Virus record (IMG/VR): IMGVR_UViG_3300036814_000459
Coordinates: 1-24,602 of that record
DNA length: 24,602 nt
DNA from: a virus
Reading direction: 5' to 3' (one strand)
Positions 3,806 to 6,032 of the stretch are shown here, one piece after another. Each line of letters opens with the position of its first letter. The first letter of the stretch is position 1. A program made the position numbers and the translations under genes. The notes under the pieces were generated by a model, which made no database searches, was not told the origin of the DNA, and worked only from the letters and a program-made list of their open reading frames with translations.

Positions 3806-4999
3806 ATGGCAACGTGGACGACCAGCGCGGCAATTGGCGCGCGTGAAGACCTCACGGACGTGATCACCAGAATCGATCCTGATGAGACGCCCATTTTTTC
3901 TAACGCCAAGCGTGAAGTCACGAAGGCGGTCTACCATGAATGGCAGGTTCAGGAACTTGCCGCGGCTTAATTTGTAGGCCCATCACGTCGCAAGGCGTGA
4001 TTGAAAATTCCGTGAATTGCTGGGAAGTCTCTCGTAGATAATCAGCAGCCAAGCCCCGCAAGGGGAAGGTTCAACGACTATCCTTTTTAGGAGTACCTGC
4101 CAAGCGGCGGGGAAGCGCGGAACACCCCACTGGGGTGATGATATAGTCTAATCTGCATGTCGACATGCAGCGGCCCTACGGGGCGGGGATGGTTTAGCGA
4201 ACTGTCCTGAATATAAATGGTAGACACAAATTACGTGAATGAGGGTGCGGATTTTTCGTATGTTAATCCCGCCGCCACGACTCGCCTCGGAAATTATCAC
4301 CAAATCTCAGTACAGGCCGCGCAAGTTTCCGGTACTCTCGACGCCGTAGACCTTGCCGGTAGAGCGAAGGAATCAGCTTTCGTTAAGATTTCAAAGTCTT
4401 TGGAGCAAAGGCGAGATATAGAAAAATCGCTGTGCAAAAACGAAGCGCGTTCCGCGAGCGACGCCCGCAAGGCCGGCAAGTTGATGAGCTATATCACCAA
4501 CATCAACGTCATCTCGGCGTCTACAACCCCCTCCGGGGATGGTTCGAACGTGAGCGACCTCGCCGGCACCAACGCCGCCCTGACGCTTGCTAAAATTGAT
4601 GCAGCTAATTTGCTTGCATACACCGACGGCGGGCAGCCCGACATGATGGTTGTATCGCCGGCCAACAAGGTTGCGTTCAGTGATCTGTCCTCGGGCAGCG
4701 CGGTGACCAACCAGTTGCATATGACCACGCCAAAGGAAGCCACCATAATCGGCGGCGTATCAATGTATTTGACAGACTTCGGCCTGTTGAATGTTGTCAT
4801 TGACCGCTTCAATGCTGATGATCGCATCTTCCTCTTGGATTCTGACTACTACAGCATCGGGCATCTGCCCGGCCGTATGTTCGCGGTTTCCGATGTGGCG
4901 GCAGTTGGGGATGCGTCTCGCTTCAGCATCACCAGCGAATGGACTCTCATAGTTAAAGCGCCAAAATCACACGGCGGCGTTTACGATCTGAGCACCTAG
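3806..4999 (+). CDS. major capsid protein, split by a group I intron (join 3806-3967, 4220-4999)
   Basis: Main shell protein of the head, DUF5309/SU10-type family. Exon 1 codes 54 residues beginning MATWTTSAAIGAREDL and ending YHEWQVQELAAA, after AAGGAG at a good distance. The next codon is a stop (TAA) that is the first codon of the intron. Exon 2 gives VDTNYVNEGADFSY, then TTRLGNYHQISVQAAQVSGT and 259 codons to the stop. Joining 3967 to 4220 keeps frame and gives 313 residues. From memory, family members read HEWQ, about five residues, a run of alanines, then a short linker and VEGAD; the joined protein has that spacing, so nothing is missing. An ATG at 4217 lies in frame but has no convincing ribosome-binding site, so the downstream part alone is unlikely to be the real product. 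Two terminators follow the gene. Confidence 0.92.
3968..4219 (+). ncRNA. ORF-less self-splicing group I intron in the major capsid gene, IA-like
   Basis: Helices pair by eye. P1: exon GGCT 3964-3967 with GGCC 3977-3980, placing a U.G wobble at the 5' splice site. P2: 3982-3987 with 3996-4001. P3: TTCCGT 4008-4013 with GCGGAA 4117-4122. P4: 4017-4022 with 4043-4048. P5: 4027-4030 with 4036-4039. P6: 4049-4050 with 4068-4069, and P6a CCCC-GCAA-GGGG 4054-4065. P7: GACTAT 4076-4081 with ATAGTC 4143-4148. P7.1: 4082-4084 with 4089-4091. P7.2: 4096-4101 with 4106-4111. P8: CACCCC 4123-4128 with GGGGTG 4132-4137. P9: 4153-4159 with 4164-4170, then two more hairpins. GTTCAACGACTA and GATATAGTC are the classic conserved core strings. 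P7.1/P7.2 suggest subgroup IA, as in the T4 td intron, whose TAATTGAGGCC start this one resembles. The last base is G4219. Length 252 is a multiple of three, and there is no endonuclease gene inside. Confidence 0.93.
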
Positions 5000-5408: not shown

Positions 5409-6032
5409 ATGGCTATCACGAATTTCGACGAATTAAAAACCGCGGCAGCAAACTGGCTCGGGCGCGACGACCTGACAGATCGCATACCCGAATTCGTCGC
5501 GTTGGCTGAAGGCCGAATGAACCGCACCATCTTTGCCCGCGCCCAGGAAGCCAGAGCCACTGCGACGTTGACGGTGGATGATGCCTTCACGGCATTGCCG
5601 ACCGATTTGCGCACAATCCGCGCGGTGCAACTAAATACCACGCCGACCACGGTGTTGAGGTTTATGCCGCCTGGAATGCTGGAGCAGTTTTACCCAAGCA
5701 CGGCAAGCGGCAAGCCTCTGGCCTATGCGGTAATCGGCGGGGAGATTAAATGGGCGCCAACACCGGACAGCGGCTACACCGCTGAAATCCTTTACACGCA
5801 AGGCATTCCGGCGCTGTCGGATTCGCAGACCAACAATACCTATTTGATCAGGAGTCCTGACGCCTACCTATATGGAACTTTGGTTGAGGCGCATCGATAT
5901 TTGATGGACCCGGCGCAGGCCAACAATTTTGACCAGATATTCGGGCGCGCCATGTCCGAGATGAAGGCCGAAGACGAAGAGGCCCGCTGGGGCGGATCGC
6001 CTCTACTAATGAAAACCACATCTGCTCCATAG
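5409..6032 (+). CDS. head-tail adaptor protein (SU10 adaptor / Gp4-like)
   Basis: 207 residues. Adaptor proteins form a ring under the portal and receive the tail. The N-terminal pattern FDELKTAAANWLGRDDLTDRIPEFVALAEGRMNR, the following TATLTVDDAFTALPTDL and the strand-rich middle (GGEIKWAPTPDSGYTAEILYTQGIPALS) fit the SU10-adaptor family. The C-terminal half (YLIRSPDAYLYGTLVEAHRYLMDPAQANNF) is helical, as is usual for these proteins. The position after the capsid gene fits. Identification is by recognised motif pattern. Confidence 0.85.
   Translation: MAITNFDELKTAAANWLGRDDLTDRIPEFVALAEGRMNRTIFARAQEARATATLTVDDAFTALPTDLRTIRAVQLNTTPTTVLRFMPPGMLEQFYPSTASGKPLAYAVIGGEIKWAPTPDSGYTAEILYTQGIPALSDSQTNNTYLIRSPDAYLYGTLVEAHRYLMDPAQANNFDQIFGRAMSEMKAEDEEARWGGSPLLMKTTSAP

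Follow-up and report, generated by a model that had tools for sequence, protein, structure and literature searches.

Group I introns are already known from phage capsid genes. In the report by Pope et al. 2013 (PMC3706429), the major capsid gene of mycobacteriophage LittleE contains an intron whose spliced form was shown by RT-PCR, and a capsid-gene group I intron of lactococcal phage Tuc2009 is cited. In crAss-like phages (Zeta/Delta), group I introns occur in MCP genes, several per gene, and were found via their encoded endonuclease domains (PMC7886860). Many compact group I introns (~206 nt) were described from uncultured Jug phages, and the splicing of 37 of 76 is backed by metatranscriptome reads (PMC12363816). 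Outside phages, related group I introns with guide matches at their targets occupy differing positions of one gene in fungal rDNA, and a spread by reverse splicing was proposed for them (PMC1299323).

The window analyzed here is a whole stretch of viral DNA of 24,602 nucleotides (IMG/VR record IMGVR_UViG_3300036814_000459). Its segment 3968–4219 is almost certainly a group I intron, predicted to self-splice, of an SU10-type major capsid gene. Like the LittleE intron, it interrupts a phage major capsid gene, with a U at the exon end and a G at the intron end, and it is short like the BAKA tail-gene intron (265 bp; PMC3706429). The LittleE intron differs from it in length (819 bp), in containing an endonuclease ORF and in residing in an HK97-like capsid gene of an actinobacteriophage, and the available part of that report contains no account of site shifting for LittleE or BAKA. 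The Jug phage examples, although comparably compact and from uncultured phages, come from huge gut phages, where they interrupt terL, nrdD and DNA polymerase genes (PMC12363816). The fungal case shares the occurrence of kin at different positions of one gene and concerns eukaryote rRNA genes, whereas the present introns interrupt protein-coding phage capsid genes. Among cultured phages, the best full-length intron matches were found in Pseudomonas phage 201phi2-1 (73%) and phiKZ (70%) over ~80% of the intron length; the 201phi2-1 match, unlike the window intron, sits in an RNA polymerase beta subunit gene.

Boundaries and host gene of the intron

The Rfam covariance model RF00028 matches positions 3958–4170 on the plus strand, where all features described below are located, over the whole model with 90.8 bits (gathering score, 50; E value, 2.3e-22). 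This is the sole Rfam match within the window. The original prediction of a group I intron at 3968–4219 had named an Rfam search as its check and is borne out by this match, and the two core strings that it listed are present, GTTCAACGACTA at 4069–4080 and GATATAGTC at 4140–4148. Membership in the group I introns is also indicated by the U3967·G3977 pair between the end of exon 1 and the guide sequence and by the terminal G4219 at the 3′ splice site, both of which are present.

The intron separates capsid exon 1 (3806–3967; 54 codons ending in GCC GCG GCT) from exon 2 (4220–4999; 259 codons and a stop). Both exons match the Pfam profile PF17236 (SU10_MCP), at profile positions 7–52 (E value, 2e-9) and 57–291 (E value, 5e-47), respectively, and the spliced reading (3806–3967 joined to 4220–4999) encodes a 313-aa protein with zero internal stops. 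SU10-type portal (3–965) and adaptor (5409–6032) genes adjoin the capsid gene. The exons are directly joined in the intronless relatives L003–L007, which contain no insert and exhibit 87–92% protein identity to the window capsid. In the empty-site alignment, bases 2500|2501 of L005 and L006 coincide exactly with 3967|4220 of the window. Because the junction falls there, the insert is exactly 252 nt long, exon 1 ends in U and the intron ends in G. The predicted boundaries are thus exact to the base, and the accompanying claims, that the flanks are parts of one capsid protein and that splicing 3967 to 4220 restores both the frame and the family alignment, hold as well.

A one-off assembly error was considered and rejected, given a second contig (L002; 99.5% identity to the window across 4.2 kb) with an identical intron and the existence of intronless alleles. 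A chance Rfam match was likewise rejected on the score, the empty sites and the covariation.

No homing endonuclease is present in the 252 nt, which are too short to hold one and lack any ORF, in line with the predicted absence of an endonuclease ORF, or among the window ORFs that were scanned; the intron thus differs from mobile (homing) group I introns, which are recognized by an encoded endonuclease. An in-frame TAA (3968–3970) opens the intron, so translation of the unspliced mRNA would produce just a 54-aa N-terminal piece. A stop as the first in-frame intron codon was noted for many group I introns (review PMC3984707). Two separate proteins of 54 and 260 aa, the second starting from the ATG at 4217, are what gene callers annotate, and production of both without splicing would suit the overlap of this in-frame ATG with the 3′ splice site and the annotation of two major head proteins in Phage C72C1. 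Such a reading is very improbable in view of the covariation of the full ribozyme core, the coverage of only an initial portion of the family profile by the 54 residues and the related intron at codon 78, whose terminal ATG lies in a different frame from exon 2. On the preferred reading, the intron would fold in the late mRNA and use GTP for cleavage after U3967 at the U·G pair of P1, and 3967 would then be joined to 4220 to yield a single 313-residue SU10-type capsid protein.

Secondary structure of the intron RNA

A structure of 76 base pairs in 15 helices (P1–P9.2, with P7 as a pseudoknot) was evaluated for covariation using a MAFFT alignment of 19 introns, the window intron and 18 relatives. 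Changes on both sides of a pair occur at 51 of the 76 pairs and in 244 cells, compared with 77 ± 8 cells in shuffles (0 of 500 as high) and 38–74 cells in a control in which the partner was slid by 1–3 columns. The window intron served as the template for the structure, a choice that favors the structure in the proportion of cells paired (87.3%) but not in the both-side changes. These changes are observed in P1, P2, P3, P4, P5, P6a, P8, P9, P9.1 and P9.2.

P1 (3964–3980) is formed between the exon sequence GGCU (3964–3967) and the guide GGCC (3977–3980), with the U3967·G3977 wobble at the 5′ splice site, and is extended by the U3968–A3976 and A3969–U3975 pairs; helix 1 covaries, with 80% of its cells paired. 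P2 (3982–3989/3994–4001) is closed by a GCAA loop and shows both-side changes in all eight of its pairs. P3 (4008–4014/4116–4122; both-side changes in 5 of 7 pairs, 97% paired) encloses P4 (4018–4023/4042–4047), P5, P6 (4048–4050/4068–4070) and P6a (4054–4057/4062–4065). P4, P6 and P7 are near-invariant with 98–100% of cells paired, while P3 and P8 (4123–4128/4132–4137; both-side changes in 5 of 6 pairs) covary. The guanosine-site helix P7 (GACUA/UAGUC; 4076–4080/4144–4148) is pseudoknotted with P3, lies inside the RF00028 match and is fully invariant in the 19 sequences. P9 (4153–4159/4164–4170) and P9.1 (4173–4176/4181–4184) are supported by covariation, and P9.2 (4187–4194/4200–4207) displays both-side changes in 8 of 8 pairs.

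The single-strand MFE fold (−105 kcal/mol; z, −3.5) reproduces every helix except the P7 pseudoknot. It includes P7.1 (4081–4083/4090–4092) and P7.2 (4096–4101/4106–4111), for which 60–64% of cells are paired in an alignment where MAFFT misaligns both helices, limiting their covariation. P1–P9 together with P7.1 and P7.2 can accordingly all be drawn as originally proposed; covariation or invariance backs the core, and the poor alignment makes for a weak test of P7.1 and P7.2. The placement of these two helices between P7 and P3′ in the modeled structure would assign the window intron to the ordinary compact IA-type phage introns. Pairing of the guide region with exon GUAG, the usual P10 register, is weak. 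A complementarity of 7 nt is observed between the intron start (AAUUUGU, 3969–3975) and exon 2 (ACAAAUU, 4226–4232), six bases inside the exon and outside the usual P10 register.

Related introns at shifted positions

The nearest relative of the window intron is the first intron of the L173 capsid gene (92.5% identity over 254 nt), which contains the same guide sequence and is inserted after codon 73, compared with codon 54 in the window. Six contigs carry the L173 copy. The two introns have a common 5′ end, UAAUUUGUAGGCCC, and both are preceded by CGGCT, with no other flank in common; each gene is uninterrupted at the position of the other's intron. A further intron, 80–82% identical to that of the window, is located at codon 78 in L028, L118 and their copies, where the guide/exon pair is altered but matching (exon GCCU, guide GGGC). 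On the capsid tree, the window clusters with the intronless L003, L005 and L007 (support, 99), followed by L173, and in the intron tree, the codon-54, codon-73 and codon-78 copies are neighbors. The intronless relatives may have lost introns. Of the 12 introns in a supported set around the window copy, nine interrupt capsid genes that span several PHROG families, one interrupts a DNA polymerase gene and the remaining two lie within a single genome in an RNA polymerase subunit region. A scan of genome contigs identified one relative only, on a Rickettsiales MAG contig, a single case that gives no basis for assigning a host.

Introns inserted at the same site exhibit a mean identity of 87% (maximum, 91.6%) at 66–70% exon identity and a mean of 90% at 70–74%, and on this calibration the 92.5% between the window and L173 introns, at 69% exon identity, is only slightly high. 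Introns are more conserved than exons here, so their age is not readable from identity, and identity alone leaves a recent horizontal transfer undecided.

The window intron, itself endonuclease-less, belongs to a compact lineage that resides mainly in phage major capsid genes and, having settled at codons 54, 73 and 78, has moved to new sites. Descent from an ancestor with several capsid introns, of which different ones were kept, would explain the different sites by repeated loss. Multi-intron ancestors are plausible from the three introns of L173 and the two of other genes, and the site-24 introns described below seem to be vertical in part (26 rows, 11 changes). This explanation is nonetheless improbable for the close pair: the introns within the L173 gene are 66–70% alike, compared with 92.5% for the window and codon-73 copies, which therefore go back to a single copy rather than to two old neighbors, so a jump is still needed.

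Guide-directed reverse splicing into capsid mRNA, followed by cDNA recombination, is the simplest route for the jump and the one that we propose, and we give it about an even chance of being correct. Homing usually copies flanking exon DNA along with the intron. Relocation without a carried exon flank is unlike endonuclease homing and resembles the expected outcome of reverse splicing. The common CGGCT of the close pair and the lack of any other common flank fit ectopic, guide-directed, reverse-splicing-like movement and are no proof of it. Guide–exon pairing is needed for splicing under any insertion route, and any splice-competent insertion must therefore match the guide, so the common CGGCT does not by itself demonstrate reverse splicing.

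Movement could also have occurred at the DNA level, through a homing endonuclease acting in trans, from a co-infecting phage or from elsewhere in the genome, that cut degenerate sites; repair would have copied the intron, and only splice-competent insertions would have survived. We regard this as possible, if somewhat unlikely. Related introns often have a homing endonuclease next to them, as seen in many downstream ORFs, ectopic insertion through relaxed endonuclease specificity has been proposed (PMC3984707), and the partial contig leaves room for an endonuclease elsewhere in the genome. The intron and the scanned window ORFs contain none, however, and the codon-54 and codon-73 sites have only CGGCT in common, without the copied exon tract that homing usually leaves. 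The occurrence of nearly the same intron at different places of this gene in sister phages suggests that such introns can reach new sites without an encoded endonuclease.

Introns across SU10-type capsid genes

A profile of 142 capsid sequences served to look for interruptions in the SU10-type capsid genes of viral contigs. At least one intron is present in 15 of 160 loci from two protein-only scans; these loci were not dereplicated, and both scans selected on protein, not on introns. The introns occupy about ten positions (near codons 24, 47, 54, 73, 77–78, 100, 108–116, ~213–240 and 285), with up to three per gene (L173, L464 and L381), and those checked were confirmed as group I by Rfam. 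Nearly all are 195–345 nt long, which leaves no room for an endonuclease gene. They resemble the crAss-like MCP introns in occurring several per gene, and differ from these endonuclease-detected introns in being compact and empty. The capsid tree requires 11 changes for site 24 (26 rows) and 12 for the 100–116 region, which points to frequent gain and loss. SU10-type capsid genes are thus a multi-site intron hotspot.

A generic compact-intron pattern, GTTCANNGACTA...GATATAGTC, was also run on viral contigs. Among the matches listed, at least 24 of 105 downstream exons encode major capsid proteins (12 SU10_MCP and at least 12 of other capsid families), a share that also reflects the ease of recognizing capsid genes and the frequency of such phages in IMG/VR. 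Endonucleases, DNA polymerase, Sak4-like proteins and nucleotide reductases are the other large downstream classes among these matches. Of two other core patterns, the second was taken from a capsid intron and is capsid-biased, so its 50 of 109 is not a prevalence estimate; the first of the two carries this bias less strongly. The view in the original prediction that endonuclease-less capsid introns are uncommon does not apply to environmental phages, given the 15 of 160 SU10-type loci and the capsid share of downstream exons.

Several individual loci extend this picture. The L173 gene (6621–8307 of the reverse complement; also L506–L508, L515 and L516) is divided into four exons; its three compact group I introns, which follow codons 73, 112 and 240, differ from one another. 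In dozens of contigs (L284–L403), SU10-type capsid genes carry a second intron type (core GTTCAGAGACTACC) at codon 24; this type also precedes photosystem II D1 exons (10 of 109 downstream exons). The deposited complete genome of Phage C72C1 (OQ984150; L082, 2833–4034) contains a group I intron at capsid codon 108, and its record places three small antisense hypothetical genes between the two annotated major head proteins. In L422 (5840–7200), two close-kin introns lie ~1.1 kb apart in one genome, and the second, unlike the first, apparently holds an endonuclease-like ORF. A distant (~30% identity) capsid-like match, perhaps a paralogue, is located ~1.5 kb downstream of the capsid gene in L035, L037, L040, L042, L043 and L045–L047.

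A more general and tentative proposal, which we consider rather doubtful, is that phage introns lacking an endonuclease spread through reverse splicing at the RNA level and would consequently pile up in capsid mRNA as the most abundant late transcript. This process would have produced the window, codon-73 and codon-78 copies as well as the relatives found in capsid families unrelated in sequence. We found neither a multi-site hotspot in SU10-type capsid genes nor site-shifted intron copies in phages described in the open-access papers searched. The near-identical endonuclease-less introns with one guide at two positions of orthologous capsid genes provide a case in a phage protein gene comparable to that of fungal rDNA, and phages are far handier than fungal rDNA for co-infection experiments. 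A further consequence is that annotations split the capsid genes of many uncultured phages. Phage introns are usually stated to prefer nucleotide-metabolism genes (PMC12350094), a preference that may mirror cultured phages.
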